A stretch of 64,000 nucleotides of DNA from Allocoleopsis franciscana PCC 7113 (GTDB taxonomy: Bacteria; Cyanobacteriota; Cyanobacteriia; Cyanobacteriales; Coleofasciculaceae), in assembly GCF_000317515.1 (NCBI RefSeq), contig NC_019738.1, forward strand, positions 3,436,001-3,500,000, given 5' to 3'. The notes beneath the pieces were generated by a model that was given only the letters and a program-made list of their open reading frames with translations, had not been told where the DNA came from and made no database searches. The position numbers were made by a program, and so were the translations under genes. Below are positions 11,670 to 62,759 of this stretch, one piece after another (the stretch's first letter is position 1; every line of letters starts with the position of its first letter).

Positions 11670-11796
11670 ATTATAAAGATTTTCCTTTGACGTTATATTA
11701 TTAGGATGATTAGTTTAAATTTTATCTATTTCAAATAAATAACGTAATTATTTTTAATAAAATTATTGGTCTCTAGTAGATAAGATTAATCCTCGT

Positions 11797-12399: not shown

Positions 12400-12633
12400 A
12401 GGTGTACTACCCCCTACTCTAGGATGACCAACCCCCACCTAGCTGTAACCAACCAGAGGCTTACATTCAGCAAAACTGGAGTCAGACTTGACGATTCACT
12501 GTATTTTCTCTAGGTTTGTTGTTGTTATTATAATTGTTTGATTGCACTCGCTCCTCAGATTTTAGGATGCGATCGCGCGACTTAAGTATACCGCCTTCAT
12601 GGACATGAGTCTCACTGGAGAGATGACAGAAAT

Positions 12634-13047
12634 ATGGCAACTTCAACAACAGCTAATAAACGTCCCAAAGAACTATCAGAGTTTGTTTTTTTCCTACCGT
12701 CTAAATTTGGCTCGATTATGGCAGGCGGAGACACAGCTTACCTGACCAAGATAAGAAAGACTGAAAGACCTGTTATCTATATTGAGCGCCGTAAAGGGAG
12801 CTATCCTTATACTGTTCTTTTAGATGTCGTTGAAGGTTTTTCTACAAACCAAATAGACCTAACAGAAGACACCATTGCTCAAATCCGTAAAGCTTTAAGG
12901 ACTAGACAGACTACGAAAGGCTGTTTAGAGCAAGTGGAAATCAGTGAACGTGTCTTTTATTGCTATTATCGAACGATAGAAGATGCTGTTGCTGTTGCTA
13001 ATACTTTAGCTGGCATAGAGTACAAGATTGAACATCGGACGGTGTAA
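12634..13047 (+). CDS. Hypothetical protein
   Basis: A small soluble protein of 137 residues that I do not recognise. It starts MATSTTANKRPKELSEF and has alternating strand/helix pattern with no membrane segment or known motif. It is flanked by an intergenic region on the left and a bidirectional hairpin terminator on the right, so it is probably monocistronic. Confidence 0.5.
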   Translation: MATSTTANKRPKELSEFVFFLPSKFGSIMAGGDTAYLTKIRKTERPVIYIERRKGSYPYTVLLDVVEGFSTNQIDLTEDTIAQIRKALRTRQTTKGCLEQVEISERVFYCYYRTIEDAVAVANTLAGIEYKIEHRTV

Positions 13048-13083
13048 ATTTGTGCGAGCGCAAATATGCTAACCAAGTAATAA

Positions 13084-13121
13084 GTAAGGGGTGCGATCGC
13101 CTTTGCGAACACACCCCTTAC
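13084..13121. terminator. Hairpin between convergent genes
   Basis: A 10-bp perfect stem, GTAAGGGGTG with CACCCCTTAC, around an 18-base loop, placed between the convergent genes ending at 13047 and 13180. A short T-rich stretch (TTTTC) follows on the plus strand. It probably acts as a bidirectional terminator. Confidence 0.5.
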
Positions 13122-13179
13122 CATGTTTTCAGGCTCTAAACTAATGCGGTGCTTTACGTATCCTGTGTACTAACCCAGT

Positions 13180-36835: not shown

Positions 36836-36856
36836 GCCAAATCAAACCTCGTTGCG

Positions 36857-36869
36857 ATAATAATTATCA
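36857..36869. promoter_or_regulatory. Fur/Zur-type box 1a
   Basis: Perfect 6-1-6 inverted repeat GATAAT-A-ATTATC, lying between the divergent flavoprotein and porin genes. It matches the core of cyanobacterial Fur-family operators (TGATAATNATTATCA). Zur is the likelier regulator because of the island's gene content, but Fur cannot be excluded. Confidence 0.7.
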
Positions 36870-36879
36870 TTCCAAATAT

Positions 36880-36894
36880 GATAGTGATTATCAT
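36880..36894. promoter_or_regulatory. Fur/Zur-type box 1b
   Basis: TGATAGTGATTATCA, a 7-1-7 inverted repeat with one mismatch, spaced ten bases from the preceding box. The tandem arrangement suggests cooperative repression of both divergent genes. Confidence 0.7.
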
Positions 36895-36982
36895 AACCAC
36901 AGTCACCCCTTAAGTGATGGGTGTGCTGTGAGGTCAGGAGTGAATTTCTGTTGAATCTCGAACGAGGGTGTGAGGAATTGTG

Positions 36983-38887
36983 ATGTCAAAAACGTGGTGG
37001 AATGCTTTACTTGTGAGTCCAGTGCTGTTTGGGGGTACTCTAGCTGCCGGGGAAAGCGCACTGGGTAGCGAAACATCAACAATAACCAAACTGGTGCAAC
37101 GACCAGTGGCAGAAATTTCAGTAGCCGCTATACAGGATAATCATGCAAAAAACGCAGAAGATGAGATAAGTCAGCTCTCTACAAAACCATCCCCCGCTGC
37201 GTCTCAACCTCCTTCAGTAGCAGTGACACCGATACAGAACCTAGTAGCATCCGAGACGGCTAATGTTTTGGAACAAATCGAGCAGTATAGCGATGAAGGC
37301 GGTGCTGACTCCCTCGAGCAAGTCACCAATGTCTCTCAACTGCGGGATGTTTCTCCGGGAGACTGGGCATTTGAAGCACTGCGAAATTTGGTCGAACGCT
37401 ATGGTTGTATTGCTGGATATCCCGATGGCACTTATCGCGGCAACCGCGCCTTAACCCGGTATGAGTTTGCGGCTGGATTGAATGCCTGTTTGCAACAAAT
37501 TGAGCGTATACTGACCAGCAGTGGCGAAGGTTTTGTTACTCGTCAGGATTTAGAGGCGCTGCAACGGCTGGTGCAAGAGTTCCAAACCGAGTTGGCAACG
37601 TTGGGTACGCGGGTGGATACGCTGGAAGGTCGTGTGGCGTTCTTAGAAGACCATCAGTTTTCCACGACTACCAAGCTTCGGGGAGAAGTCAGTTTTTCTG
37701 CCAGTGGTGCATTTGGCGACGAAAAAGCAGATGGCAGTGGTGAACAGGTAGAGGATAACATTGTTCTCGACTACCGAACACGTCTGTTTTTTGAGACAAG
37801 CTTTACAGGCAAAGACTTGTTAGTTACCCGCTTGGATGCTCTAAATACCATTCCCTTCGGCCCTGGTGAAGACGATAATCCTAATGTAACTGGAACGAGT
37901 ATGACTCGGCTCGCCTTTGATGAGGGGACTAACAATAGCGTTCGGATTGGGAAGTTGTTCTATCGGTTCTCAGTGGGTGAAACGGCAGAGTCCCATGAGT
38001 CGGAAGAAGAGGAACACGGACACGGACACGGACACGGACATGGTGCTCCCGAAGGTGCGAAGCTCTCATTTGTTATCGATGCCGTTGGGGGTGAGTTTAA
38101 TGAAAACTTCGCCAACTTCAACGAATTTTTCTCGGAAGAACTCACGGGTGCAATTTCCCGTTTTGGGCGGTTCAATCCGATTTACTACCAGGGATTGGAA
38201 GGTACGGGAGCCAGTCTTACTTATAACTTTAGTGACGCACTCAGCCTATCTGTAGGCTACCTGGCACCGAATGCCAGCGACCCCAGCGAGAAAAATGCAC
38301 TGTTTGATGGTAGCTATGCGGCTATCGGGCAGCTTAGTTTCGATCTTAGCGATCGCGTGGGGTTAGGTCTGACCTACGTGCGAGCCTACTATCCTGGAGG
38401 ACAGGTGGTTGTCTCCGGGGAAACGGGTAGCGAGCTGGCAAATGTGCCGTTTGGAGAAGATACAGCCACTTCAGCCGATCACTTTGGAGTTTCTGCACGC
38501 TTTCGCATCAGTCCAGCCTTCTCGCTTTCGGGTTGGGCGGGGTTGACAAGAGCTCACGCTAAAAATGATGGGTTCAACGATGGTGTCCTGGTGAGCAAGG
38601 GGGATGATGCCACTATTTTCAACTGGGCTGTCACCCTAGCATTACCAGACTTGGGTTCAGAGGGCAGTTTGCTTGGGTTCATCGTGGGACAACCCCCGAA
38701 GGTGACTGATAATGATATCGGTCTTGAGGATGGTGACACGTCTTGGCATCTGGAGGCTCAGTATCGCTACCAACTTACCGATAATATTGCCCTTAACCCA
38801 GGTGTGCTGGTGATTCTCAATCCAGAACACAACAATAATAACGACACCATTTGGGTAGGAACCCTTCGTACCATCTTTGAATTCTAA
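36983..38887 (+). CDS. SLH-domain outer-membrane porin (iron-uptake-porin type), His-rich
   Basis: A 634-residue outer-membrane porin of the cyanobacterial SLH-OprB type. A signal peptide (residues about 1-25) is followed by one SLH domain (FEALRNLVERYGCIAGYPDGTYRGNRALTRYEFAAG region), a coiled segment (RVDTLEGRVAFLEDH), and a beta-barrel ending in aromatic IFEF. An acidic/His insertion EEEEHGHGHGHGHG near residue 345 is unusual and suggests metal binding. The ATG at 36983 with a GAGGA site is preferred to a GTG at 36980. Two Fur/Zur boxes lie upstream. A paralogue without the His run is encoded at 52495-54450. Probable metal-limitation porin; zinc is inferred from context. Confidence 0.82.
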   Translation: MSKTWWNALLVSPVLFGGTLAAGESALGSETSTITKLVQRPVAEISVAAIQDNHAKNAEDEISQLSTKPSPAASQPPSVAVTPIQNLVASETANVLEQIEQYSDEGGADSLEQVTNVSQLRDVSPGDWAFEALRNLVERYGCIAGYPDGTYRGNRALTRYEFAAGLNACLQQIERILTSSGEGFVTRQDLEALQRLVQEFQTELATLGTRVDTLEGRVAFLEDHQFSTTTKLRGEVSFSASGAFGDEKADGSGEQVEDNIVLDYRTRLFFETSFTGKDLLVTRLDALNTIPFGPGEDDNPNVTGTSMTRLAFDEGTNNSVRIGKLFYRFSVGETAESHESEEEEHGHGHGHGHGAPEGAKLSFVIDAVGGEFNENFANFNEFFSEELTGAISRFGRFNPIYYQGLEGTGASLTYNFSDALSLSVGYLAPNASDPSEKNALFDGSYAAIGQLSFDLSDRVGLGLTYVRAYYPGGQVVVSGETGSELANVPFGEDTATSADHFGVSARFRISPAFSLSGWAGLTRAHAKNDGFNDGVLVSKGDDATIFNWAVTLALPDLGSEGSLLGFIVGQPPKVTDNDIGLEDGDTSWHLEAQYRYQLTDNIALNPGVLVILNPEHNNNNDTIWVGTLRTIFEF

Positions 38888-42722: not shown

Positions 42723-44051
42723 CTATAGGTCTGTAATCAGCCTTGCCTTCCTTAGCAGAAATTGCAGGACTGTTTCTTCTCTGGAAATAATATCGGCTCT
42801 CCCCTCCATCCCTAATTGAATCGGACACTGACGAGTACCATAACCTAAAGAGAGGCTTTCTGGCTGAATCGTGACCTCATAAAATGAGGGCGTACCACTG
42901 ACATTAGACCTTACAGTTGCAGTCGTACCGTCTCGTTGAAGTGGGATAGCATCTGGGGAAATCGTACTCACTACACCTTGGAGGGTGCCGTAATCGGGGT
43001 AAGGACAGGCGGATACTCGCAGTTGTACGTTTTGACCGCCTTTTACCTTGCTAATGTCTTGTGATGTCACTGTTGCCTTCACAACCAACTGGGTATTACT
43101 GGGAGCAATTTGGGCGATTTCTGTACCAGGTTGCACTGTCTGACTAGAATTTCGTAAGTTCAACTTGAGGATTGTGCCGTCAGTGGGTGCAGCAATGATG
43201 GTTTGCTTGAGGTCAATTTCCACTTGTTGGAGTTGGCGGATATCCCGTTCTAGCTGGTTCTGAAGTTCAATTTGCTGCTGAATCAGGGCAACCCGTTCTT
43301 TGTTTAATGTAGCGGTGGTGGCTTCTCCCGTCGCTTTTTCTTGGGCAATGCGCTCTGATGCGATCGCTACATTAGCAGCGCTAGGATTAAGAGAGGCTTG
43401 GACACCTTCGAGTCGAGCAAGAGCTGCTTTAACTGCTTGTTGTTTTTGCTGAAATTGAAGCTGAGACACTGCCCCAGACTCTACGAGCTGTTGATAGGCT
43501 TTTAGCTCAGCATTGGCTAACCCTAACGCTGCCTCCGCTTCTTTTACGTCTGTTTGTGTGGTAACTTGTCGGTCTTGATAATCGCGTTGGTTGCGGCTTA
43601 AATCGGCTTGAGCAGAGGCGATAACTCGTTGATTGCGGTTCGTTTCTGCGGTAATTTGGCGATCGAGGGCAGCAATTTGGGCGTTCATTTGAGTGAGTTG
43701 TCGCTGAAGCTGCTGGATATTGCCTTGCAACTGGCGTTTTTGGGTTTGCAGGCGGGAGTCGTCGAGGATAGCAATAATCTCTCCCTGCTTCACCACCTGA
43801 TTTTCTTTCACTTTTATTCGCTCCACCGTGCCTTCTTTCGCCGCTTGGACAATTCGCAATTCACCCAAGGGACGGACGGTGGCTGGGGCTTTTACCGTAA
43901 CGTTGTACTTAAATAGGGCAGCAAGGATAAATGCAACTCCAACCGTGCCAACCATAAATAAGCCACCGAGGGTTGTCCATCGGCTGATAGGAGGTAGAAA
44001 TTCATCGCTAGAAGCTTTGGGGAGAACAGCCTCGTTAGAATCGTTAAGCAT
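42723..44051 (-). CDS. HlyD-family membrane fusion protein for lanthipeptide export
   Basis: Periplasmic adaptor (about 442 aa from the ATG at 44051; a TTG extension reaches 44084). One N-terminal membrane segment (GGLFMVGTVGVAFILAALF), then half-lipoyl motifs (GTVERIKVKENQVVKQGEIIAILDD), a long coiled coil rich in Gln, and a beta-barrel end domain. It would connect the inner-membrane ABC exporter LanT (45450-47555) to an outer-membrane channel. It lies 121 bases downstream of the precursor gene on the same strand, so both are probably transcribed from the Zur-boxed promoter at 44459-44510. Confidence 0.85.
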   Translation of the reverse strand: MLNDSNEAVLPKASSDEFLPPISRWTTLGGLFMVGTVGVAFILAALFKYNVTVKAPATVRPLGELRIVQAAKEGTVERIKVKENQVVKQGEIIAILDDSRLQTQKRQLQGNIQQLQRQLTQMNAQIAALDRQITAETNRNQRVIASAQADLSRNQRDYQDRQVTTQTDVKEAEAALGLANAELKAYQQLVESGAVSQLQFQQKQQAVKAALARLEGVQASLNPSAANVAIASERIAQEKATGEATTATLNKERVALIQQQIELQNQLERDIRQLQQVEIDLKQTIIAAPTDGTILKLNLRNSSQTVQPGTEIAQIAPSNTQLVVKATVTSQDISKVKGGQNVQLRVSACPYPDYGTLQGVVSTISPDAIPLQRDGTTATVRSNVSGTPSFYEVTIQPESLSLGYGTRQCPIQLGMEGRADIISREETVLQFLLRKARLITDL

Positions 44052-44172
44052 CTTGCAAGAATGACCCAGAAGAGATAGTGTCAAGTCCTCTCTGGGTCAA
44101 TAATTTAATCAATTAGCCAGCCTTGATTATGGCAATTGCATCACAAGAGATGATGCCGAAAGCAATCTAGCA

Positions 44173-44391
44173 TTAAGCAATGTCAGTCGCGATCGTGTCA
44201 GCAAAACAAGCAATCCGAGTGTGCAAGGGATTGCCACAGGGAGTACATCCCCCCGACACTGAGGAAAGATCTTCATCCGACAGTTCGATCAGTCCAACTG
44301 GATTTTCTGGCAACAGTGCCTTCTGTTCATCGCTCAAGCTGGCACGGTAGTCTTCATCTTTCCACGCACGGATAATATCGGCGTTAGACAT
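44173..44391 (-). CDS. lanA: Mersacidin-type class II lanthipeptide precursor
   Basis: A 72-residue precursor. The leader begins MSNADIIRAWKDEDYRASLS and includes ALLPENPVGLIELSDEDL, the signature of mersacidin/lichenicidin-family leaders. It ends VSGG, the double-glycine cleavage site. The 24-residue core starts CTPCGNPLHTR, has three Cys, four Thr, no Ser and one His, and ends TDIA. Thr dehydration and Cys addition would give methyllanthionine rings. The CxxC and His could also bind metal. A GGAGG site seven bases before the ATG fixes the start. Two Zur-type boxes lie 68-119 bases upstream. Confidence 0.82.
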   Translation of the reverse strand: MSNADIIRAWKDEDYRASLSDEQKALLPENPVGLIELSDEDLSSVSGGCTPCGNPLHTRIACFADTIATDIA

Positions 44392-44458
44392 ATACACCCT
44401 CCATTGGGTATGGAACTTAACTTGGCTTTTCGCCGTAAGTAAGCATAGCCGATTTACG

Positions 44459-44475
44459 AGAATGATTATCATTCT
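44459..44475. promoter_or_regulatory. Fur/Zur-type box 3a
   Basis: Perfect palindrome AGAATGATTATCATTCT (8-1-8), in the divergent promoter between the lanthipeptide precursor and the oxygenase gene. Confidence 0.78.
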
Positions 44476-44495
44476 AATGCATTATCTAAACCAAT

Positions 44496-44510
44496 GAGAA
44501 TGATTATCAA
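44496..44510. promoter_or_regulatory. Fur/Zur-type box 3b
   Basis: GAGAATGATTATCAA, sharing the GAATGATTATCA core with the box 21 bases before it. It is closer to the oxygenase gene, so each divergent promoter may have its own operator. Confidence 0.7.
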
Positions 44511-44582: not shown

Positions 44583-45494
44583 ATGGAACCCGTTCATCAG
44601 TTCTTACATCAACTGAAACAAGACCAAAAACTCCGAGAAGAATTAGCCGAAACGCTTAGAGTAGAAAACGATTGGAACGTTGCCACTCATATAGCGGAAA
44701 AATATGGATACAAATTTACCAGCAAGAAACTCTGGGAAACTATTCAGGAACGCCAGCAAAAAGGCGAAACCTGGGAAGACGAACCCCAACCTGCGATCGG
44801 AGTAGAAAATGCTAGTATTCAGCTCGACAACTTTCTGACAGCAGAGGACAATCATCACCTCCTAGAATATGCCCTACAACATGAGTCAGATTTTGTCAGT
44901 AGCTTAACGGTTGACCTTGATGATACTTTGCACCTATCACCAAATCATCGTCGCTCTTTAATGTTGCCATCATGCTCCGATGTAGTTGAAGGGGTTATCC
45001 ATCGTATTCACCAAGTTCTCCCAGAGGTGAGGAATCAATTATTGCTGCCATCTTTTCCTATTTCCGGAATTGATGCCTCCCTAACGGCTCATAATGATGG
45101 ACATTTTTACAGATTGCACAAAGATAATAACTCTATCCGTCTGGCAACGAGAGAAATTACCTTTGTTTACTATTTTTGTAAAGAACCTAAACCCTTTACA
45201 GGTGGAGAGTTACGAATTTATTACAACCAGGTTAAGAAAAATTTATTTGCTTTTAAACTAATAGAACCTCGAAACAATAGTATTGTCTTCTTTCCGAGTC
45301 GCTACCTACATGAAATTTTACCCGTGCATTGTCCTTTTCAAAATTTTGCCGATAGTCGATTCACCATTAACGGTTGGATTGAACAACAGGTAGGTAGCAG
45401 TAGAGGCGCAAATTTCCGGGACTTAATGTTAACGTTGATGGTGATGATTTCAAGGAGTCAAAAAAACCAAATGCTCTCCAGCTTTGGAACCTAG
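44583..45494 (+). CDS. Nif11-domain/prolyl-4-hydroxylase-like 2OG-Fe(II) oxygenase fusion
   Basis: A 303-residue fusion. Residues 1-60 (FLHQLKQDQKLREELAE, then IAEKYGYKFTSKKLWE) match the Nif11 domain that serves as leader in many cyanobacterial RiPP precursors. The rest is a P4H-type 2OG-Fe(II) oxygenase: HFYRLHKDN gives the H-x-D pair, RYLHEILPV the second His, and SRFTINGW the 2-oxoglutarate Arg. It faces away from the precursor gene across two Zur boxes and overlaps the 3' end of lanT by 45 bases. Likely a tailoring hydroxylase for the lanthipeptide; the Nif11 part may bind the modification machinery. Confidence 0.75.
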   Translation: MEPVHQFLHQLKQDQKLREELAETLRVENDWNVATHIAEKYGYKFTSKKLWETIQERQQKGETWEDEPQPAIGVENASIQLDNFLTAEDNHHLLEYALQHESDFVSSLTVDLDDTLHLSPNHRRSLMLPSCSDVVEGVIHRIHQVLPEVRNQLLLPSFPISGIDASLTAHNDGHFYRLHKDNNSIRLATREITFVYYFCKEPKPFTGGELRIYYNQVKKNLFAFKLIEPRNNSIVFFPSRYLHEILPVHCPFQNFADSRFTINGWIEQQVGSSRGANFRDLMLTLMVMISRSQKNQMLSSFGT

Positions 45495-47555
45495 AACTTC
45501 TGGACTTCCTTGAAGTTTTACCTGTCCTTCTTCCAAGAAGACAATCCAGTCGGCACGGTTGATAACTCTGGGGCGATGACTAATCAGAATTGTGGTTTTT
45601 CCTTGACGGTGGGAGAGGAGTCGATCAAGGACTTCTGTTTCACTCACTGGATCGAGACTTGCCGTAGATTCATCTAAAATTAAGATAGATGGGTCAGTGA
45701 CAATACCTAATGCGATCGCTAATCGTTGCCGTTGTCCTCCTGAAAGATTAGCGCCGAATTCTCCTAAAATAGTTTGATATTTGTTGGGAAGTTTACTAAT
45801 AAATTCATCTGCCTGAGCAATCTGACAGGCTTTAACAATTTCCTCAAAGCCAATCTGAGGATTTCCCAGAGTAAGATTATCAATAATTGAGCGACTCCAA
45901 AAGTGAGCTTCTTGGGGAATTAAAATAATCTGCTTTCTAATGCAATCGAGCGAGAGGTCTTGTAAATTGTAAGCATCAATGCGAATATTACCAGACTGGG
46001 GCAGATATAACCCTGCAATTAGTTTAGCTAGGGTACTTTTCCCACAGCCAGATTTACCAATTAAGGCAATCACTTTACCCCCAGGAAGGGTAAGAGAAAA
46101 GTCTTGGAGTAACTCCACTCTCCCCTTGTGATGAAAGTTGAGATGAGTGCAGGTAATCGTGGCATTACTGGGAATTTTAACCCTTGGCTTGGGTGTGTTA
46201 TCCTGAATTTCAGGTGTAGAATCAATCACATCCATCAAGCGCTGAATGGCAGTTTGAGTGAAGGCGAGTTGATTGACAAAACTTAGAATTGTTGTAATTA
46301 AAATCAGGCAATTTCGGTTCATTGCATTAAACGCTAACAATTGCCCGATGCTTAGGGTTTGGGCAAAGACTAAACTACTTCCGAACCATAGCAGAATGGT
46401 TTCACCACTGAGAGAGACAAACCCAGAAAATACATTATTGACAATAGCCATCTGTAGGGTATTGAAGGTGAGGGTTGCTTGTCGTCCATAGCGAATCTGA
46501 AATTCTTCAAAAAATTGAGGGGCTGCATTTTTAGTTTTCAGAGTGATTGCCCCTTTGAAGGTTTCAATTAATAAACTTTGGTTTTCTGCGGTTAAGGCTA
46601 ATAGATTGCGGATTTTTTGCTGAATCTTGGGGATTAAGATGACAGTGGATAGAGTCATGATGACAGTAATAGCCAAAGCAACAAGCAAGAGTTGAGGGCT
46701 ATAAACAAGCATGAACCCCAGGGAAACCAAGGCAATAAAAATCTGACTGGGCAGAATAATCCCGGCTTGAGAAATAAGTTGGTTAATGGCTTGAATGTCG
46801 CGCAAGCGGCTGATAATTTCACCACTCCGATGAGATTCGTAGTAAGGCAGGGGTAAACTCAGAATAGTACGACCAAATTCTAGAACTAAATTTAATTCCA
46901 GTCGTTGAGCAAAATGAGCCACTAAGTTGGATTGAATAAATTTAAGGCTACTGCTAATGAGATGCATCACCAAGACAGCAATGATGACACTATTGAGCAG
47001 GTAAGTATCTCCTCGAATCAGTACATCATCAGTGAGAACTTGCAGTAAGAAGGGAGAGGTAAGCGAGAGCAATCCTAAAAAAAAGTTCAGTAATAACGCT
47101 TCAGCTAGAAGAGTCCGATAATTCCAGAATTGTTGGAAGAAGCGATTAAAACTACCAACTTTGTTTCGATCATCGGGTTGGCTTTTAAAGTCAGAACGTG
47201 GTTCTAGTAAGAGCATCACGCTATTAGTCCAGCCAGACAGTAATTCTTGGCGAGATAAATAGCGCATCCCTACGGCTGGATCGGCTATGACATACTTGTT
47301 TCCCTTGCGCCCATACAACACAACCCAGTGATTCCCTTTCCAGTGGATAATTCCGGGTAATGGCACAACTTTTTGATCGATCAGTTCTAGGGGTGCTTTA
47401 ACACCTCGTGCATCGAATAAAAGCGCTTTTGCCCCTTGTCGGAGGTTGAGTAATGTAGTACCTAGTGGCCCTGTTCCTGCCACTTCCCGAACCCGATTGA
47501 TGGAAAAAAAACGCCCATAATATTTAGCGATCGCAAGCCTTACAAGCTGCACCAC
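45450..47555 (-). CDS. lanT: LanT-type peptidase/ABC exporter, frameshifted peptidase domain
   Basis: A 701-residue PCAT-family exporter. The ABC domain has Walker A IGKSGCGKST, signature LSGGQRQRLA and Walker B LILDEST, behind a six-helix membrane domain. The C39 peptidase domain keeps its His (IIHWKGNHWVVLYG) and Asp (IADPAVG), but the open frame starts at a GTG inside the domain, after the catalytic Cys. The missing start (MKYQVILQHNEEDCGAAC) lies in another frame just upstream (47524-47595), joined by a one-base insertion near 47539-47544. As read, it could export but not cleave the leader unless frameshifting restores the domain. Confidence 0.75.
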   Translation of the reverse strand: MVQLVRLAIAKYYGRFFSINRVREVAGTGPLGTTLLNLRQGAKALLFDARGVKAPLELIDQKVVPLPGIIHWKGNHWVVLYGRKGNKYVIADPAVGMRYLSRQELLSGWTNSVMLLLEPRSDFKSQPDDRNKVGSFNRFFQQFWNYRTLLAEALLLNFFLGLLSLTSPFLLQVLTDDVLIRGDTYLLNSVIIAVLVMHLISSSLKFIQSNLVAHFAQRLELNLVLEFGRTILSLPLPYYESHRSGEIISRLRDIQAINQLISQAGIILPSQIFIALVSLGFMLVYSPQLLLVALAITVIMTLSTVILIPKIQQKIRNLLALTAENQSLLIETFKGAITLKTKNAAPQFFEEFQIRYGRQATLTFNTLQMAIVNNVFSGFVSLSGETILLWFGSSLVFAQTLSIGQLLAFNAMNRNCLILITTILSFVNQLAFTQTAIQRLMDVIDSTPEIQDNTPKPRVKIPSNATITCTHLNFHHKGRVELLQDFSLTLPGGKVIALIGKSGCGKSTLAKLIAGLYLPQSGNIRIDAYNLQDLSLDCIRKQIILIPQEAHFWSRSIIDNLTLGNPQIGFEEIVKACQIAQADEFISKLPNKYQTILGEFGANLSGGQRQRLAIALGIVTDPSILILDESTASLDPVSETEVLDRLLSHRQGKTTILISHRPRVINRADWIVFLEEGQVKLQGSPEVLGSKAGEHLVFLTP

Positions 47556-47626
47556 AATCTTCTTCGTTGTGCTGTAAAATAACTTGGTATTTCATCCCCA
47601 TTTTGGATTTGGTTCCATCAGTCTAA
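47433..47626 (-). repeat. Duplicated lanM-lanT junction, copy A
   Basis: 194 bp matching 48726-48919 without gaps, with 7 mismatches (about 96% identity). It covers the last three codons of lanM, the short spacer and the first 50 or so codons of lanT. The match ends exactly where the attC-like element begins. Confidence 0.85.
47524..47595 (-). pseudogene. Out-of-frame N-terminus of LanT peptidase domain
   Basis: From the ATG at 47595 this frame reads MKYQVILQHNEEDCGAAC with the catalytic Cys (codon 47554-47556), then KACDR and a stop at 47524-47526. Removing one base after the second Cys codon would give CRLAIAKYYG and join the downstream 701-residue frame. The same shift is present in the duplicate at 48726-48888, which argues against a simple sequencing error. 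Confidence 0.7.
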
Positions 47627-47710: not shown

Positions 47711-48175
47711 CTATGGATGGTCATTTGGGTTTTCAACCAATAGCCCTTCGTTAACAGCAGCTAAATTCAATTCATCGTCTGCGGATACAAGAATAATGGA
47801 TGGCAAACCATTAGCGATACAAAGCTCATTCACTGCATATCCTGCTGCTAACTGAACAGCATCATACCCTCGTAATCCGTGTGTCTCAGCCAGTGCCATC
47901 CCAGAATTAATAAGTCCTTCTATAATTTCAACAACTTGGTAGTCTGTTTGTAAATCATTCCGCAATTGATTACAGACTAACTTTGCATCTGCGGCACTGA
48001 TACTGCCATTACGTGTCCTTCGTGTAATTGCTGCAACAATTTCAACCCCTGTAATTGCTGCAACAAAAAATTCATTGTCTAGCGTCGGATCGAATAACCC
48101 CAAAACCCAAGCTGAACCAGTTTCACTGATGTATCTCTTAACCAGCGCACTACTATCTAGAAAGTAGATTGCCAT
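47711..48175 (-). CDS. PIN-domain (VapC-like) toxin
   Basis: A 154-residue PIN-domain ribonuclease. Acidic active-site residues are in YFLDSSALVKRY, TGVEIVAAI, GYDAVQLA and VSADDELNLAA, the standard order for VapC-type toxins. The start touches the stop of the antitoxin gene (adjacent bases 48175/48176), indicating translational coupling. The pair interrupts the lanM-lanT operon and is bracketed by duplicated junction sequence. Confidence 0.85.
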   Translation of the reverse strand: MAIYFLDSSALVKRYISETGSAWVLGLFDPTLDNEFFVAAITGVEIVAAITRRTRNGSISAADAKLVCNQLRNDLQTDYQVVEIIEGLINSGMALAETHGLRGYDAVQLAAGYAVNELCIANGLPSIILVSADDELNLAAVNEGLLVENPNDHP

Positions 48176-48439
48176 CTATCGGCGTTCCCCGATAATTGTT
48201 TGAGAAACAGACTCCCCCTGAACCTGAATAAGATGCTGAGGTGTTCTGTGTTCAAAAGTTGGATTCTTAATCTGCCGAACCAATCCAGACTCTACTAATG
48301 CTCGGTTGAATGCCACTCGCCTAGCAGATGCTTCTCTGTTTTTCAAGTATGCTTGGAGTACTTGACTAAGTTGCTGTAGCTCAGATGGCTCCAGCGCCTG
48401 CAACTGGTTGAGGATTTGGTTCAGAATTGCTTGCGGCAT
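48176..48439 (-). CDS. Antitoxin partner of the PIN toxin
   Basis: An 87-residue helical protein (LNQILNQLQALEPSELQQLSQVLQAYL at the N-terminus) directly preceding and abutting the PIN toxin gene. No DNA-binding fold is obvious, but such short helical antitoxins are common before cyanobacterial PIN toxins. The C-terminal part (RTPQHLIQVQGESV) probably occupies the toxin active site. Confidence 0.75.
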   Translation of the reverse strand: MPQAILNQILNQLQALEPSELQQLSQVLQAYLKNREASARRVAFNRALVESGLVRQIKNPTFEHRTPQHLIQVQGESVSQTIIGERR

Positions 48440-48725
48440 CGGTTGTAACCTGCGGGCTGGCTTTGCTATCTATTCTACAAAACCTTAAGCAAGCATCTCA
48501 CAGATCGCCTGACAGAACCGCTCTTACCAAAAACTTCAGCAGCAAAACTTATTATTATGCCGCAATGTGCAGTAAGCGTCCCCATACAGGTCAGGCTATC
48601 CCGCACATCGCCGTTTAGCATCCTTTGTTTACGGAAACTTCAAACTCGTCATCGTACTCTCACACATTACTCGTTGGGAACAATATTCTGTAGAGCGGCT
48701 AGTCCTGCTATGAGAGTGTATTTTT

Positions 48726-48919
48726 CCCTTGTCGGAGGTTGAGTAATGTAGTACCCAGTGGCTCTGTTCCTGCCACTTCCCGAACCCGATTGATGGAAAA
48801 AAAACGCCCATAATATTTAGCGATCGCAAGCCTTACAAGCCGCGCCACAATCTTCTGCGTTGTGCTGTAAAATAACTTGGTATTTCATCTCCATTTTGGA
48901 TTTTGTTCCATCAGTCTAA
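48726..48919 (-). pseudogene. Duplicated lanM-lanT junction, copy B, with 5' lanT fragment
   Basis: The 194-bp partner of 47433-47626. It contains the real 3' end of lanM and a second start of lanT (ATG at 48888: MKYQVILQHNAEDCGAAC), with the same +1 shift and stop. It breaks off after about 50 codons. It is the relic of the original or a duplicated lanT start left behind when the toxin-antitoxin cassette entered. Confidence 0.8.
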
Positions 48920-51900
48920 AATGGTGTTGGGAGGGGAAAGTACCAAGATGGAAGGAATTTTGTCAGGTGCAGCAAGACGCAGCAATCCGTAACCGATTCC
49001 TGCCAAACCAGTCATTAACCCTAGTGTTTCAACTCCTAAGGGTACTCCGCAACACCAACCCTGCTGGCGAAGGCTTTCTAGGATACTGGCGGCAAGGCGA
49101 GTAACTGGAGAATGCCAAGTTGAATAATTAGGAGTTTGACTCACTTGTAAGAGAAATTCCAGATTACCCAGCATCCCGTTACACAACGAATGATTTCCAC
49201 AAAAGCCATGAGCAAGCGTTGTTTCTAAGGCAGTATTAATCTCCAGGGGAATTTGTGCATCTTCCAAGTGTTTGAGGGAATGTAACCGTGCTAATCCAAT
49301 TCCAGGGGCACCATAACTCCAGGCAACGCTAAATGTATCCCGCTCCCCAGGCTGATTTAACCAATTTTTAGTATCAGGAGAAAATAAACTGCGCTCATCA
49401 GTTATTGCACCAACTGCTGAAGAGCGAAAACGTTCCTCTCCCGTTAATGTAGCTAATTCCAACAGCGCCCAAGCCATCCCTGCGGCACCGTGAGAAAATC
49501 CAGTTAAGGGGTTAGTTCCGTCTCCAGGCATCCAAGCTCTACCCTGTTCCATTGCTTGATTTTGGGATATTATGCGATTGCCTTTGGCACCACCTAAAAG
49601 GTGATCGCCACATTGAATCGCAACCGCTTTAATCCGCTCATCCGGAATACTCTGATATAGAGCTACCAACGCCCCAATACAACCCGCAGCCCCGCCGATG
49701 ATATCCAGTTGATTATCATTCTCAATCAATCCAGGCAGGATATCCACCCACTCCAAGGCTTGATTCAACAATTGGGGTTGACGCCACAAACTCCCCAAAT
49801 GCGTCAGAGTGTAAATCAACCCTCCCCACCCATCAAAGGCACCAATGGAGGTAATAATAGAGCGATCGTACTCAACCTGACGTTGTAATGTAAAGAGAGC
49901 CTGTTGAGCAAGTTTTGTATAGCGTGATTCTTGAGTAATTTCTCCCAAATAGGCAAAAAATAAGGCAATTCCAGGGATACCATCAAACAAACTCCATCCT
50001 AAAGGAGCAACAGCCCAATGGTGTTTACCCATAAGTCTGATGCCAATCCAACTCGCCATTTCTCCATCGCGTAACGCCAATGATTCCAAGCATTCAGCAA
50101 TCGTACAAGCGGTTTGTAAAAGTTCTGAAGTTAAGGTTTCTTGCTCAGGAATTGTCGGAATTTCAGGCAAAGAAACACTTACCCATTCTACTGCCTCAGC
50201 GTCCATTCCTAGAGTATAGAGAGAACTCTCGATTAACCTCACTTGCCACGCTAAATCTTCTGGGTTCAACTGTTGTATACGATGCCGCACCTGTTCCATC
50301 CCTGATGTCTCAAAAAAATCAGGAATTTGCTCTTGTTCATTCAGCCTAAGTTCACGGGAATTGGGGTAAGTGGTGAATTTAGGAATGTCTCCCTGCCATA
50401 ATGACTCTTGTTCTGCTTTGATTAGCTGTGTCAGATAAGAGCGATTTTCCACATCCACCCACAGGCGATCGAATAAGCGATCGCGATTTAAAGCATCCCG
50501 TAAAACATCGGGATGAAAACTCTCTCGCAATAATAAAGCATAGGTTCGACTTTCACGCAAAACTACACGCACTTCATCCGAGGCAAAACGAGTTAAAAGT
50601 CCATCCTGTGCTAATAGTTCATCCCGGTGTTTCATCAAAAATTGATATATCGTTGTAAATCCGGTGATGATTGCCTCTTTGTAGTCTAAAACATTCACTT
50701 GTGCCTCATGCAATCGCGGTCGATTTTGGCTTTCTGGTAGGGGAATTTGCTGCCGAATCATTCGCATTTCATCAGTTCCTTTCCCCGCCAAAGTAAGAAT
50801 CCGCTCCGGCATTATTTGACCATCAGTTGCACCAATTCCACTCACTTCAATCCCCGCAGATTCCCCCTGTCTCCATAACCGCTGAGGCAGTAAGCCAACG
50901 CGAAACACGGACTGAGCCATTCGCTGATTTGCTATAAAAATTGCTTCGGGGGAGTTGGGTTCAACTTTACGCGGCTGGAATAGGGTTTCCAAATCAATGG
51001 GCATGGGATGTTCCCCCGATGCAATTAAGTTTTCTAAGTGAAAGTCTGTCGCATCAAGTGCATACAATAACGCTAAGTATCCTCCCATTCGTTGATAAAA
51101 ACGCTCGATTTGCGACTGATGGCTGCAACTTGATGATTCAATAAATTCTACCCAACCATAAGTTCCACAGTTAATAATCTTTAAAGGTTTTAATGGCAGA
51201 AAATCAGCCTTTTGATTAATCCAATAGAGAAGGTCTTGAAAATGGACATCTACCGCTAAAGGTTTTGGCTTATAGACGACCTTAAAGCCTGACTGAAATT
51301 TAGCAATAACTACAGAACGCCCACCATTATGGTTATCGCTGATACTGCAATTAATTTGTTCCAATACCCCCGGTTCTTTGTCAGGACTGAAAGCCGTGCA
51401 AATTGCTGCCCAATCTGTACAAAGCCGTTGAATAAATTCAAGCTTTACCTCAATGTGTTGCTGAATGCAGAGTGCAAGTTGACGAGCAAGAACCGGATAG
51501 TCTTGTAACAGTTGTATTGCTACGTCTTGCTCTTGGAGACGTTGTAAAAAGCTTAAGTATCGCTCTTGGGCAGTTTCACCAGATAATAGCCCTTGCAGAC
51601 GTGCTACGTTGAGTTCTAGCACCATCGTCGGAGTCAACATCCAGAGTAAATGCTGGGGTAAATCTGCCAATAATATAGATAAAATGCTGTTGGAATCGAA
51701 AGGCAGTTTGGATGATAAAAGTAAGGGAGTAGGGAATAAGGCATTTCTTTCCCCACTCCCCATTCCCCATTCCCCATTCCCCACATTGTTTCTAGATTTT
51801 TGGTTAACTTCAATGGCTTGAAGTCCTGCCTGTAAGCGGTTAATCCCTTGATGAATGAGTGGGGCGATCGCACACAGAAAGTTATCGGACGTAATAACAG

Positions 51901-52240
51901 ATTTTAAATTAGAACAATCAGCAGTAGAAAAAGCCTGCTCAATTTCTCTGAGCCATTCTGGAATAGTGGGAAAACGTTCAGCAAGCGATCGCATTGATTC
52001 CCCTAAAAGAAAGCGAAACTCTTGTTCCGTTATCCCCTCTTGAGTGAGCTTGGCATCAAAAAAAACAGGTTTTGTCAAGGGTTTTTGCGATCGCCAGCGT
52101 TGAATTCGCCGTTCAGCCAATTCTGCGTTATACCCATTTTCGGCAATCTGACGCCCCCTTACCCCCAAAGATGCCACCCTTTCGGTCAATTTCAACGCCT
52201 GATACCAGTTCCCAGCTTGAAAACAGTCTTGACTCATCAT
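48911..52240 (-). CDS. lanM: Class II lanthipeptide synthetase LanM with degenerate zinc site
   Basis: About 1109 residues from the ATG at 52240 (a TTG extension reaches 52312 inside the operator). The N-terminal dehydratase domain is intact: DNHNGGRSV, VVYKPK, DATDFHLENLIASGEHP and IDLETL. The C-terminal LanC-like cyclase keeps GFSHGAAG, but the first zinc-ligand Cys of the usual WCxG is Ser (AWSYG, codon 49316-49318), and the usual CHG or CCG is CNG (codon 49178-49180). Only one of three ligands remains; a nearby CGNHSLC could offer substitutes. A CCCCATT repeat tract is translated in a linker. The gene is under a Zur-type box. Confidence 0.88.
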   Translation of the reverse strand: MMSQDCFQAGNWYQALKLTERVASLGVRGRQIAENGYNAELAERRIQRWRSQKPLTKPVFFDAKLTQEGITEQEFRFLLGESMRSLAERFPTIPEWLREIEQAFSTADCSNLKSVITSDNFLCAIAPLIHQGINRLQAGLQAIEVNQKSRNNVGNGEWGMGSGERNALFPTPLLLSSKLPFDSNSILSILLADLPQHLLWMLTPTMVLELNVARLQGLLSGETAQERYLSFLQRLQEQDVAIQLLQDYPVLARQLALCIQQHIEVKLEFIQRLCTDWAAICTAFSPDKEPGVLEQINCSISDNHNGGRSVVIAKFQSGFKVVYKPKPLAVDVHFQDLLYWINQKADFLPLKPLKIINCGTYGWVEFIESSSCSHQSQIERFYQRMGGYLALLYALDATDFHLENLIASGEHPMPIDLETLFQPRKVEPNSPEAIFIANQRMAQSVFRVGLLPQRLWRQGESAGIEVSGIGATDGQIMPERILTLAGKGTDEMRMIRQQIPLPESQNRPRLHEAQVNVLDYKEAIITGFTTIYQFLMKHRDELLAQDGLLTRFASDEVRVVLRESRTYALLLRESFHPDVLRDALNRDRLFDRLWVDVENRSYLTQLIKAEQESLWQGDIPKFTTYPNSRELRLNEQEQIPDFFETSGMEQVRHRIQQLNPEDLAWQVRLIESSLYTLGMDAEAVEWVSVSLPEIPTIPEQETLTSELLQTACTIAECLESLALRDGEMASWIGIRLMGKHHWAVAPLGWSLFDGIPGIALFFAYLGEITQESRYTKLAQQALFTLQRQVEYDRSIITSIGAFDGWGGLIYTLTHLGSLWRQPQLLNQALEWVDILPGLIENDNQLDIIGGAAGCIGALVALYQSIPDERIKAVAIQCGDHLLGGAKGNRIISQNQAMEQGRAWMPGDGTNPLTGFSHGAAGMAWALLELATLTGEERFRSSAVGAITDERSLFSPDTKNWLNQPGERDTFSVAWSYGAPGIGLARLHSLKHLEDAQIPLEINTALETTLAHGFCGNHSLCNGMLGNLEFLLQVSQTPNYSTWHSPVTRLAASILESLRQQGWCCGVPLGVETLGLMTGLAGIGYGLLRLAAPDKIPSILVLSPPNTILD
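51749..51784. repeat. CCCCATT heptanucleotide repeat inside lanM
   Basis: A tract of about five CCCCATT/CCCCACT units, typical of cyanobacterial short tandemly repeated repetitive sequences. It lies in frame in lanM and encodes the Gly/Trp-rich VGNGEWGMGSGE linker between dehydratase segments. Confidence 0.75.
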
Positions 52241-52310
52241 TTTTTGCCCCTGCACCCAACTTACTTCGATCTCTTCAGGATGCTGCCCCAAGTTCTCTAC
52301 TTTACACGAC

Positions 52311-52338
52311 AATAATGATTATGATAATTATTCTCATT
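52311..52338. promoter_or_regulatory. Fur/Zur-type boxes 4, overlapping
   Basis: AATAATGATTATGATAATTATTCTCATT contains overlapping ATGATTAT and GATAATTATTCTC half-sites. It lies between the divergent lanM and porin (52495) genes and overlaps the possible TTG start of lanM. Confidence 0.68.
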
Positions 52339-52494: not shown

Positions 52495-54450
52495 ATGCCA
52501 AAAATCTTGTGGGATTCCTTTGTGGGTGCTGCTTTCGGAGTGTCGATTTGTGCGCTATCTGCCAGCGCCGACATCACTACCCCAGAAGTGCTGATGGGGG
52601 AAGAAGGGAGTGTAGAAAGTACAGAATTCCCTGTGTCTGTCTCTCCCTTAGCGGAATCAAAGAGTCTCGATGTGCAGGAACCGTCGGTTTCCGATTCCTT
52701 AGCTGTTTCTTCCCCAGAGTTAGAAATCACCAATCCTGAAGTAGAAACCCCGACTGCACCAGCACCATCAGAAGTCTTCTCACCGCAAGTAACACCGGAC
52801 AACGCGCCTTCGGTTGACTCTCTCCATCTCTCTGAGGAAGAGTCGTCTAATGGGGCAATGGAACAAGTCACCTCTGTGTCTCAGCTATCTGATGTTCAAC
52901 CCACAGATTGGGCGTATGAGGCATTGCGAAGCTTAGTTGAACGCTATGGCTGTATTGCAGGGTATCCCGACGGTACCTTTCGAGGCAACCGGGCAATGAC
53001 GCGCTACGAATTTGCCGCCGGATTGAATGCCTGTATGAATCAAATCGAGCGTTTAATTGCGGCAAACACCGCTAACTTTGTAACCAAAGAAGACTTAGCT
53101 ACCCTGCAACGCTTAGTTGACGAATTTCGCAGCGAATTAGGAGCATTGCAAGGTCGGGTGGATACGTTAGAAGCGCGAACTACCCAACTGGAAACTCAGC
53201 AGTTTTCCACCACCACAAAGCTATCCGGTGAAGCAATTTTTGCCATTACTGATGTGTTGAGTGGAGATTCTGACCCATTTAATGTTGGCATCACCCGCAA
53301 CAATACGGTATTTGCTAATCGGGTACGCCTAAACTTACTCACCAGCTTTACGGGTAACGATGTCTTACACACCCGTTTGGAATCGGGGAATTTCCCCCAT
53401 CCCCAGCGTCCGCGTGCATTTCGCTACGGTGCTGACCCCATCCTGAGTGATTTCGGGATACTGGGAAGCACGCCAGAAGGAGGACAGACGTTCAATATCG
53501 GGGCAACTGAACCGCCGGGAAGTGTGGCATTAGGTCTTCTCAGCTACAAATTCTCAGTGGGGCAAAATCTCCGCGTTGCTATTTTCGGCAACTTGGGTGA
53601 ACATCCAGATTATCTTCCCACTACCTTCAGCACTTGGGCAGATGACGATGGAGGAACGGGTTCCATCTCTACCTTTGCTCAGTACAGCCCGATTTACCGC
53701 ATTGGTGTGGGTGCAGGTGCAGGGTTAAATTACAGCTTTAGTCCTAGTGTCAGCCTCAGTCTGGGGTATCTAGCGGCGGAAGCGAACATTCCAGAGAGTT
53801 TGAGTGCAGCTAATCTTCGTGGGGGCGGTTTGTTTAGCGGTAGATATGGAGCGCTAGCGCAGTTAACTTTTCAACCTAATGACAATATAGCGCTGGGTCT
53901 AACCTACAATCACAGCTACTCGGCGGGACTACCGCTTTTTTTCAATGATGTGGGTACAACGTCAGCTAATGTCAATATTACACTCACGTCCCCTTCGTTG
54001 CGATACTCGGCGGATTCCTTTGGTGTCGCTGGGATGTGGCGAGTGACGCCAGGGTTTGCGGTTAATGGTTGGTTTGTCTATACCAACGTCAAGGGTAAAC
54101 CCCCGGTAGGGGACGAAGGCGGGAGTGCGGATGTGTTCAGTTATGCGGTTTCCCTGGCATTCCCCGATTTAGGTAAACGCGGAAATCTCGGTGGAATTGT
54201 GGTGGGTGTTCCTCCTTATGCCACCCGAATTGGAATTGCGCCTTCTCTCCAAGACCTTTTTGGGACAAATGATGCTGTTAAACTCATTCCTAATCGAGCA
54301 ATTCCATTGCACATCGAAGCCTTTTACAAATATCAACTGACGGATAATATCTCGATTACACCAGGCGTGATTTGGCTAACAGCACCTAATCAAACAACGA
54401 CGAATTCTGATGTGGTCATTGGCACACTTCGGACTACATTCACGTTTTAG
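52495..54450 (+). CDS. SLH-domain outer-membrane porin, second paralogue
   Basis: A 651-residue porin with signal peptide (VGAAFGVSICALSASA), an acidic Pro/Ser-rich linker, one SLH domain (AYEALRSLVERYGCIAGYPDGTFRG region), a coiled segment and an OprB-like barrel ending TTFTF. It matches the gene at 36983 in order and in the SLH segment, but has no His-rich insertion. It shares a Zur-boxed divergent promoter with lanM. It may admit scarce metals or a metal-peptide complex; that link is inferred. Confidence 0.82.
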   Translation: MPKILWDSFVGAAFGVSICALSASADITTPEVLMGEEGSVESTEFPVSVSPLAESKSLDVQEPSVSDSLAVSSPELEITNPEVETPTAPAPSEVFSPQVTPDNAPSVDSLHLSEEESSNGAMEQVTSVSQLSDVQPTDWAYEALRSLVERYGCIAGYPDGTFRGNRAMTRYEFAAGLNACMNQIERLIAANTANFVTKEDLATLQRLVDEFRSELGALQGRVDTLEARTTQLETQQFSTTTKLSGEAIFAITDVLSGDSDPFNVGITRNNTVFANRVRLNLLTSFTGNDVLHTRLESGNFPHPQRPRAFRYGADPILSDFGILGSTPEGGQTFNIGATEPPGSVALGLLSYKFSVGQNLRVAIFGNLGEHPDYLPTTFSTWADDDGGTGSISTFAQYSPIYRIGVGAGAGLNYSFSPSVSLSLGYLAAEANIPESLSAANLRGGGLFSGRYGALAQLTFQPNDNIALGLTYNHSYSAGLPLFFNDVGTTSANVNITLTSPSLRYSADSFGVAGMWRVTPGFAVNGWFVYTNVKGKPPVGDEGGSADVFSYAVSLAFPDLGKRGNLGGIVVGVPPYATRIGIAPSLQDLFGTNDAVKLIPNRAIPLHIEAFYKYQLTDNISITPGVIWLTAPNQTTTNSDVVIGTLRTTFTF

Positions 54451-55274: not shown

Positions 55275-55697
55275 CTAAGATATTTGATGGGTGCAGGGTT
55301 CACAGAGTCCGAAAAATTCCAGGGTGTGATAGTAGATTTTGAACGGAACGGAGGGCTGTAAGTGAGTTTCTAATTCCTGTACCGGGCAGTGGTCGAGTGG
55401 AAACGACTGGCCACATTGCAAGCAGGTGAGGTAGTGCTGATCGGGTGCAACAGGACTGTAGAATGCTTCGCCGTTTGCACTCATCCGACTTTTGATTAAT
55501 CCATGCAACTTCAAGGTTTCTAATGCCCGATACACCGTTGCCAGCCCGATCGCCTGTCGTTCACGCAGCAGGCTATACAACTCCTGGGCTGAGCGGGCAT
55601 CCGCTTGCTGGTGCAGCACATCGAGTACCGCTTGCTGATTGCGAGTCAGGCGGGGTGAGTGGGTTGCACTTTCTTGAGATGAAGAGTCACTTTTCAC
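55275..55697 (-). CDS. zur: Fur-family zinc uptake regulator Zur
   Basis: A 140-residue Fur-family repressor. The winged helix includes LTRNQQAVLDVLHQ and GLATVYRALETLKLHGLI. The dimerisation domain has DQHYLTCLQCGQ and LCEPCTHQ, the two CxxC pairs of the structural zinc site. Assignment to Zur rather than Fur rests on the adjacent znuA-znuC-znuB genes. It starts with GTG at 55697 and is divergent from hemB across a Zur-type box, so it is probably autoregulated. Its stop converges on the phosphoesterase-like gene. Confidence 0.87.
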   Translation of the reverse strand: MKSDSSSQESATHSPRLTRNQQAVLDVLHQQADARSAQELYSLLRERQAIGLATVYRALETLKLHGLIKSRMSANGEAFYSPVAPDQHYLTCLQCGQSFPLDHCPVQELETHLQPSVPFKIYYHTLEFFGLCEPCTHQIS

Positions 55698-61655: not shown

Positions 61656-62759
61656 ATGACATCTTCACTATCAGAACTGCCCCTCAAGCGAGGAATGCCT
61701 GTCACTATCATTACAGGGTTTCTCGGCAGTGGTAAAACTACTTTGCTGAATCATATTCTGAGCAATTGCCAGAATTTAAAAGTTGCGATTTTAGTGAATG
61801 AGTTTGGAGACATTAACATCGATAGCCAATTACTCGTATCAATGGATGAAGATATGGTGGAACTGAGTAATGGCTGTATTTGTTGTACGATTAATGATGG
61901 GTTGGTGGATGCGGTTTATAACGTGCTAGAGCGTGACGATCGTGTGGATTACATGGTAATTGAAACCACAGGCGTTGCTGACCCGCTGCCAATTATTCTG
62001 ACGTTTTTGGGTACAGAATTACGCGACTTGACCCAACTCGATTCGATTATTACTGTTGTTGATGCCGAAACCTTTACGCCCGATCACTTCGATAGTGAAG
62101 CCGCCTTCAAGCAGATTGCCTACGGAGATATCACGATTTTGAACAAAACCGATCTAGCAGATCCAGATCAGATTCAGAACCTGGAGGCTTACATTCGCAC
62201 CGTCAAAGAATGTGCCAGAATTCTTCATAGCCAGCATGGAAAGGTTCCACTACCGTTGATTCTGGATGTAGGTTACAACAATCCGGAAGCCTATGCTGAT
62301 TTAGTTCAGGAAGAGATTGAGCAATCTCAGCACGATCGCGACCATCATTCGCACGATCATCATGAAGATCACACCCATCATCCCCATGAACACCATCATC
62401 ACCATTCGCACGATCATCATGAAGATCACACCCATCATCCCCATGAACACCATCATCACCATTCCGATCATCTAGATAATGATGGATTTGTGTCGATCGC
62501 CTTTGAGAGCGATCGCCCTTTTGATGTCCACAAGTTTGAATCGTTCCTGCAAGAACAATTGCCCCAGGAAGTCTTCCGGGCAAAAGGAATCCTCTGGTTT
62601 GCTGACAGCGAGTTGCGCCATATCTTTCAACTGAGTGGTCCGCGCTTTGACATTCAGGCAGAAGAGTGGCGGACTTCACCCAGTAATCAACTTGTGTTTA
62701 TTGGGCGCAATCTGGATGCAGAGAACCTGCGGCAAAACCTGAAGCATTGTCTTGCCTAA
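61656..62759 (+). CDS. COG0523 zinc-chaperone-type GTPase with His-rich loop
   Basis: A 367-residue CobW/ZNG1-type GTPase. The P-loop is GFLGSGKTT, the metal-binding GCxCC is NGCICCTIND, the base-specificity motif is LNKTDL, and the C-terminal CobW domain ends the protein. Between the domains is a run of about 50 residues dominated by His and Asp/Glu, built from a perfect 57-bp tandem duplication (62347-62460). Such proteins bind zinc and pass it to client enzymes when zinc is scarce. It precedes folE, whose zinc site is intact, and another COG0523 gene. Confidence 0.88.
   Translation: MTSSLSELPLKRGMPVTIITGFLGSGKTTLLNHILSNCQNLKVAILVNEFGDINIDSQLLVSMDEDMVELSNGCICCTINDGLVDAVYNVLERDDRVDYMVIETTGVADPLPIILTFLGTELRDLTQLDSIITVVDAETFTPDHFDSEAAFKQIAYGDITILNKTDLADPDQIQNLEAYIRTVKECARILHSQHGKVPLPLILDVGYNNPEAYADLVQEEIEQSQHDRDHHSHDHHEDHTHHPHEHHHHHSHDHHEDHTHHPHEHHHHHSDHLDNDGFVSIAFESDRPFDVHKFESFLQEQLPQEVFRAKGILWFADSELRHIFQLSGPRFDIQAEEWRTSPSNQLVFIGRNLDAENLRQNLKHCLA
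62347..62460 (+). repeat. Perfect 57-bp tandem duplication in the COG0523 gene
   Basis: Units 62347-62403 and 62404-62460 are identical and each encode 19 residues (HSHDHHEDHTHHPHEHHHH phase). The exactness suggests recent expansion of the metal-binding loop and possible length variation between strains. Confidence 0.9.

Follow-up and report, generated by a model that had tools for sequence, protein, structure and literature searches.

Loss of the zinc ligands in Zur-boxed class II lanthipeptide synthetases of cyanobacteria

A class II lanthipeptide synthetase (LanM) of Allocoleopsis franciscana PCC 7113 carries a cyclase domain from which the zinc triad has been lost, and we consider it highly probable that this is a zinc-free domain within a Zur-controlled system. 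Class II cyclases have, to our knowledge, been described as strictly zinc-dependent, and we know of few roles assigned to cyanobacterial lanthipeptides. The gene lies in a stretch of 64,000 nucleotides (contig NC_019738.1, positions 3,436,001 to 3,500,000), hereafter the window, to which all coordinates refer. We favour, with moderate confidence, a reading in which the genes form a Zur-controlled class II RiPP system with a zinc-free but still-active cyclase domain and a product that serves zinc acquisition.

An intact synthetase without a zinc triad

The lanM reading frame is uninterrupted over 1133 amino acids and matches both expected domains (DUF4135, E = 5e-138; LANC_like, E = 9e-71), scoring 1001.6 bits against a TIGR03897 cut-off of 304 and matching PF13575 and PF05147. 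The class III model NF038151 gave only 72.8 bits against a cut-off of 575; DUF4135 and LANC_like were the only domains found, and the domain search detected neither a class III lyase nor a Ser/Thr kinase domain ahead of the cyclase. Translation likely starts at the ATG at 52240, judging from the position of the Zur box and from relatives. This is the only LanM in the genome.

48911–52312, minus strand: lanM, class II lanthipeptide synthetase (DUF4135 and LANC_like, TIGR03897)
48944–50005, minus strand: LanC-like cyclase domain without zinc triad (PF05147, residues 770–1123)
49316–49318, minus strand: codon of Ser999, replacing the first zinc-ligand Cys, in W-S-Y-G (from alignment)
49181–49183, minus strand: Cys1044, the sole triad residue left (from alignment; Gly or Ala in L030 and L044)
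49178–49180, minus strand: codon of Asn1045, replacing the third zinc-ligand His, in L-C-N-G (from alignment)
49703–49705, minus strand: Asp870 (LDIIGG), NisC Asp141 equivalent by an alignment-based reading
49490–49492, minus strand: His941 (GFSHG), proton donor, NisC His212 equivalent
49313–49315, minus strand: Tyr1000, enolate-stabilising position

The initial annotation had noted that WCxG reads WSYG and CHG reads CNG, and the codons agree: on the minus strand tgg-agt-tat-ggt gives W-Ser-Y-G and ttg-tgt-aac-ggg gives L-C-Asn-G. The window LanM is thus S/C/N, where cyclases of the CCH and CCC types have three zinc ligands. In an alignment of about 80 relatives, Cys and His fill the first and third ligand columns in all CCH enzymes, hence the two ligands are absent rather than shifted elsewhere. 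The kinase/elimination residues of the dehydratase, earlier described as intact, are conserved: D326, H328, K348, D423, N428, D440 and R586 are invariant in 11 relatives and align with LicM2.

Ligand loss is shared by a diverse clade

Relatives were collected within the family, order and class of the strain and by a scan across GTDB; no relatives were found on viral contigs. Recurrence of Ser and Asn among homologues had been proposed as a check, and 13 LanMs (clade A), most of them Zur-boxed, share the loss with S or N, then C or G, then N or S at the three positions. They come from Iningainema, Microcoleus, Oscillatoriales USR001, a Coleofasciculus MAG, Spirulina and others. Clade A is monophyletic with full support (SH-aLRT 100, 13 rows), and a subset of ten retained 100/100 after the ligand columns were masked. 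As the same loss occurs in many genera within one fully supported clade, it is not local damage and is shown by the tree to have arisen in the common ancestor of clade A. Within the tested set, clade A is also set apart without overlap from the zinc enzymes at positions 776 (Tyr to Phe/Trp), 895 (Leu/Ile to Lys/Arg) and 1097 (Pro to Leu).

A fourteenth ligand-less LanM, L044 (S/A/Q), represents a separate loss. L044 and L030 (S/G/N) are without all three ligands, and the other 12 of the 14 ligand-less enzymes retain Cys1044. Across the 14, the replacements are S or N, then C, G or A, then N, S or Q, a variability which is expected if no metal is bound.

Two observations concern other relatives. 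A second type of ligand-less LanM with W-A-x-G/L-C-W-G motifs was found in L004, L018/L027, L161 and L167, which are ProcM-like relatives; in these the catalytic His is replaced by Gln and a Zur box is absent. In Fischerella thermalis PCC 7521 (L078), a member of a Zur-boxed branch, lanM (9994–13192) is split into two open frames and is probably disrupted.

The predicted cyclase fold and the acid-base residues are retained

Structure prediction, a further check proposed at the outset, returned a toroid with a pLDDT of 90, and this model matched LicM2 best (PDB 6ST5, Z 43.8, 30% identity), with the class III cyclase ThurKC further away (Z 32, 15% identity). The predicted fold therefore lies on the class II side of this comparison, and the class III-type cyclase that characterises LanMbC enzymes is not what the model suggests for the window LanM. 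The equivalents of Asp870 and His941 are kept in 14/14 ligand-less relatives, and the position of Tyr1000 is His or Tyr in all 14; the enolate-stabilising residue is His277 in LanCL1 and Tyr285 in NisC (PMC9934072). The roles given here to the acid-base and enolate-stabilising residues follow PMC9934072 and PMC10604976.

Pairs of clade A cyclase domains gave dN/dS ratios of 0.15–0.26, close to the values for zinc-type pairs and for the dehydratase domains. Purifying selection on the clade A cyclase domain is thereby shown for close pairs.

Zur boxes are confined to a wider clade

52322–52336, plus strand: Zur box between lanM and the divergent porin gene, TGATAATTATTCTCA, perfect
44457–44471, minus strand: lanA Zur box 1, one mismatch
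44495–44509, minus strand: lanA Zur box 2, perfect
55275–55697, minus strand: Fur-family regulator, probably Zur (PF01475), adjoining hemB and znu genes

The cluster had been described as a Zur-boxed operon, which holds for the boxes at 52322, 44495 and 44457. The perfect box TGATAATNATTNTCA has only three sites in the 7.97-Mb genome, one upstream of lanA, one upstream of lanM and one next to a znuA-like gene. Allowing up to two mismatches, the window contains 20 Zur-box matches against 2.8 expected, and 0 of 100 shuffles reached 20. From these sites we infer that lanA and lanM are Zur-regulated. The Fur-family gene scored below the cut-off of all NCBIfam Fur/PerR/Zur models and is named as the probable Zur from its gene context.

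In a tree of 74 LanMs, those with a Zur box near the gene start all belong to a single clade with 27 members (SH-aLRT 99, or 100/99 once the ligand columns were masked), inside which clade A is nested at 100/100, and no Zur box precedes any LanM outside it. This Zur clade has three branches: clade A; a Nostocales branch which retains C/C/H and also includes L044; and a third in which C/C/H is likewise intact. Upstream regions were readable in 12 of the 13 clade A members (L090, at a contig edge, was left unscored), 11 of which are Zur-boxed, while in L065 the lanM box is weak (two mismatches) and the lanA box perfect. L141/L044, with the core HPTVRPTTCSCCGSAALTA, lacks a porin homologue as well as a Zur box ahead of lanM and of lanA; this independent loss may have departed from Zur control.

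Zur boxes accompany ligand loss in 11/13 ligand-less LanMs vs 12/56 others (Fisher p = 4e-5, 69 rows, relatedness ignored). Counted by event, both losses fall within the Zur clade, which makes up 38% of branch length, with a chance of about 0.14; two independent events are too few for significance at this level. As clade A and the sister branches with intact C/C/H all lie in the Zur clade, the tree is most simply read as Zur control being the older trait and ligand loss the later one. Zur control does not require zinc independence, since the Zur-boxed sister branches keep C/C/H. A strict rule, with ligand loss if and only if a Zur box is present, was rejected on these branches and on the box-less W-A-x-G/L-C-W-G enzymes, which lost their ligands.

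Precursor cores and gene neighbourhood point to zinc

44173–44391, minus strand: lanA precursor (TIGR03898), leader ending in SVSGG, core CTPCGNPLHTRIACFADTIATDIA
42723–44084, minus strand: HlyD-type export adaptor (PF13437), conserved in the clade
45450–47555, minus strand: lanT, peptidase/exporter ABC protein (ABC domains and truncated Peptidase_C39; frame without the C39 catalytic Cys)
52495–54450, plus strand: SLH/OprB-family ion-uptake porin, divergent from lanM (PF04966, NF033921)

Precursors of the Zur clade have a common mersacidin-type leader and short, His/Cys-rich cores. With relatedness ignored in each comparison, His occurs in the core of 25/25 Zur-clade precursors vs 30/80 controls, HT or HH in 24/25 vs 7/83, and the pattern C-x2-C..H..C in 13/25 vs 0/83. 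The window core CTPCGNPLHTRIACFADTIATDIA has the spacing C-x2-C-x4-H-x4-C, that of a zinc knuckle, and this resemblance suggests a putative zinc-binding site. A near-identical core, CTxCGNPxHT...C, is paired with ligand-less LanMs (window, L065) and with zinc-type sisters (L078, L079, L142).

Porin homologues (51–66% identity) were found close to lanM in 17/28 Zur-clade loci vs 0/20 controls; they are absent from the third branch and from L044, and some further absences are contig ends. Several Zur-clade loci, the third branch included, have znu or COG0523 genes close by. The genomic surroundings of lanM in the Zur clade thus also point to zinc.

Relation to known systems

Zur-regulated zinc-sparing paralogues are known, for example ribosomal proteins without the zinc motif. 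The window LanM resembles these in being a zinc-free version of a zinc enzyme with Zur boxes, and the Coleofasciculus MAG has a ligand-less LanM alongside zinc-type LanMs without a box. It differs in that the window genome has no zinc-type LanM to replace.

Among lanthipeptide synthetases, the closest likeness is to LicM2 and the class II LanMs of the mersacidin-lichenicidin group (TIGR03897/TIGR03898), with which the window LanM shares domain order, fold, dehydratase residues, leader family and the cyclase Asp and His; it differs in having S/C/N for C/C/H, Zur boxes and short His/Cys cores. The class III cyclase ThurKC closes rings without metal and has a Ser/Phe/Asp triad of which Phe and Asp are needed (PMC10604976). 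Like the window domain, it is LanC-like without zinc ligands and has Ser at the first position, but LanKC enzymes possess lyase and kinase domains, the S/F/D triad and replacements of the Asp/His pair (Ser608, Asp667), whereas the window LanM keeps this pair and has a DUF4135 dehydratase. CcaM (LanMbC, dehydrazoles) fuses DUF4135 to a cyclase, does not depend on zinc and yields a product without rings (PMC10676384); its cyclase is of class III type and acts after a YcaO enzyme, whereas the window domain is of class II type.

Two further groups lack a recognised zinc site. Clostridial CA_C0082 LanM-like proteins have neither zinc motif nor dehydratase residues and a role in Agr signalling (PMC10301443); the window LanM shares the absence of the zinc motif but has conserved dehydratase residues. 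"D-Unk" is a computational category of DUF4135 with an undefined triad, covering 47 peptides, and the new synthetase combinations in the same study include cyanobacteria (Leptolyngbya, Oscillatoria acuminata; PMC11251773). By the category description, the window LanM falls within D-Unk, but PMC11251773 makes no tie to Zur, zinc, a porin or a core pattern. Undefined-triad DUF4135 synthetases have been tallied already, and the Zur link and core pattern appear to be new: a literature search, with most subscription journals outside its coverage, found no Zur-controlled lanthipeptide and no lanthipeptide zincophore. The ligand loss, the Zur boxes and the core pattern together suggest a zinc-starvation peptide system which has not been described before.

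A proposed zinc-starvation system with a zinc-free cyclase domain

Under the reading we favour, zinc scarcity would cause Zur to leave the promoters of lanA, lanM and the divergent OprB-type porin gene. By analogy with their families, LanM would then dehydrate Ser/Thr residues of the short His/Cys core and LanT/HlyD would export the peptide. The cyclase domain would bind no zinc and still act on the core; its most likely task would be to steer thioether formation in the absence of metal, in loose analogy to class III cyclases. A metal-free class II domain guiding Cys addition is favoured by the Ser at the first position, as in ThurKC, and by the retained Asp/His pair. Whether the domain still closes rings is, on sequence grounds, an evenly balanced matter. 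The product would help to acquire zinc, possibly being taken up through the porin, and that role for the product seems rather likely from core and gene context.

The initial annotation had proposed a zinc-independent or differently metallated cyclase. Zinc independence is in line with the clade-wide loss, the Zur boxes, purifying selection and the retained acid-base residues; a different metal fits poorly with the variable replacements. More tentatively still, the Zur clade may include a ribosomal zincophore family of cyanobacteria, consisting of a Zur-induced metal-free class II LanM, a secreted C-x2-C..H..C peptide and a dedicated porin of the outer membrane, in which zinc was shed so that the scavenger could be made without zinc.

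As a diverse clade without a zinc site has kept the fold, the acid-base residues and the signature of selection, metal-free class II thioether chemistry becomes directly testable, and a ready comparison is at hand in the sister branch, whose core is almost identical and whose triad is intact. If the reading is correct, zinc acquisition would be a function for cyanobacterial lanthipeptides and RiPPs would join the Zur response.

Alternative explanations

The synthetase could instead act as a dehydratase only, which we regard as the main rival though somewhat unlikely. The cyclase domain would make no thioethers and be kept for LanM folding or dehydration, the product would have dehydro residues and free Cys thiols, and free Cys and His would form a C-x2-C-x4-H-x4-C zinc site, the loss of cyclisation itself being the adaptation. 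The zinc-knuckle spacing of the window core agrees with this, as does CcaM, where a zinc-less cyclase domain is needed for dehydration and the product is ringless (PMC10676384). The replacement residues vary and include no obvious new catalytic base, and zinc-ligand mutants of lacticin 481 synthetase are impaired in cyclisation (Paul et al. 2007, as cited in PMC9934072). Zinc-type sisters with intact triads, however, process near-identical cores, and the acid-base pair and enolate-stabilising residue, which are important for Michael addition, are kept in all 14 ligand-less enzymes, whereas the W-A-x-G/L-C-W-G enzymes lost the His.

The Zur link might also be incidental, with an antimicrobial or signal peptide that zinc starvation just happens to induce and a change of substrate or drift behind the ligand loss. 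That Zur-boxed sisters retain their zinc ligands, that there were only two loss events and that there are other ligand-less LanMs without a Zur box are all compatible with this, but the porin linkage, the nearby znu/COG0523 genes and the His/Cys core patterns, with C-x2-C..H..C absent from all 83 controls, point to zinc, and we judge an incidental link to be unlikely.

Decay of the cluster, in which the ligand changes would be the degeneration of a gene losing function in the window strain, has a basis in lanT.

47524–47595, minus strand: out-of-frame N-terminal lanT piece, MKYQVILQHNEEDCGAACKACDR*, the same region being in-frame in 21 relatives
48710–48919, minus strand: lanT 5' end, second copy of 210 nt (93% identity with 47417–47626)

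The two 210-nt copies flank a VapBC-like toxin-antitoxin pair (47711–48439), and in both the same frameshift puts the C39 catalytic Cys out of frame with the rest of LanT, hence the lanthipeptide system of the window strain may be impaired. The lanT start is, however, in-frame in 21/21 relatives checked, lanM is open over 1133 codons, and ligand loss predates the frameshift, which therefore does not explain it. Decay may apply to the lanT of the window strain but not to ligand loss, for which a pseudogene account is rejected because 13 LanMs from many genera, united with full support, have it in common and because cyclase dN/dS is far below 1; as an explanation of the changes in lanM we consider it very improbable.

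Least credible is a different or rebuilt metal site, in which the remaining Cys and its neighbours would hold another metal or low-affinity zinc: Cys1044 is kept in 12/14 ligand-less enzymes, and in some of them an additional Cys lies close to the conserved C-G-V-P motif at the C-terminus (W-C-C-G in the window, C-Y/R-C-G elsewhere), but L030 and L044 are without even the middle Cys and the additional Cys is placed differently or missing from one enzyme to another. CGNHSLC, earlier put forward as a source of substitute ligands, was rejected: zinc enzymes commonly contain NHS, and the Cys of CGN is absent from all other clade A members yet present at the same place in zinc-type LicM2.

Other genes in the window

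A 2OG-Fe(II) oxygenase gene with a weak Nif11-like N-terminus (44583–45494) is divergent from lanA across both lanA Zur boxes; no homologue was found in other Zur-clade loci. Two Zur-like boxes (36855, 36879) lie between an FAD-dependent oxidoreductase gene and a second SLH/OprB porin gene (35609–38887), and homologues of the oxidoreductase (66–76%) occur near lanT/lanA in L061, L067 and L138. The window also encodes a COG0523 (ZigA-like) GTPase (61656–62759) with long His/Asp-rich tandem repeats (HSHDHHEDHTHHPHEHHHH).
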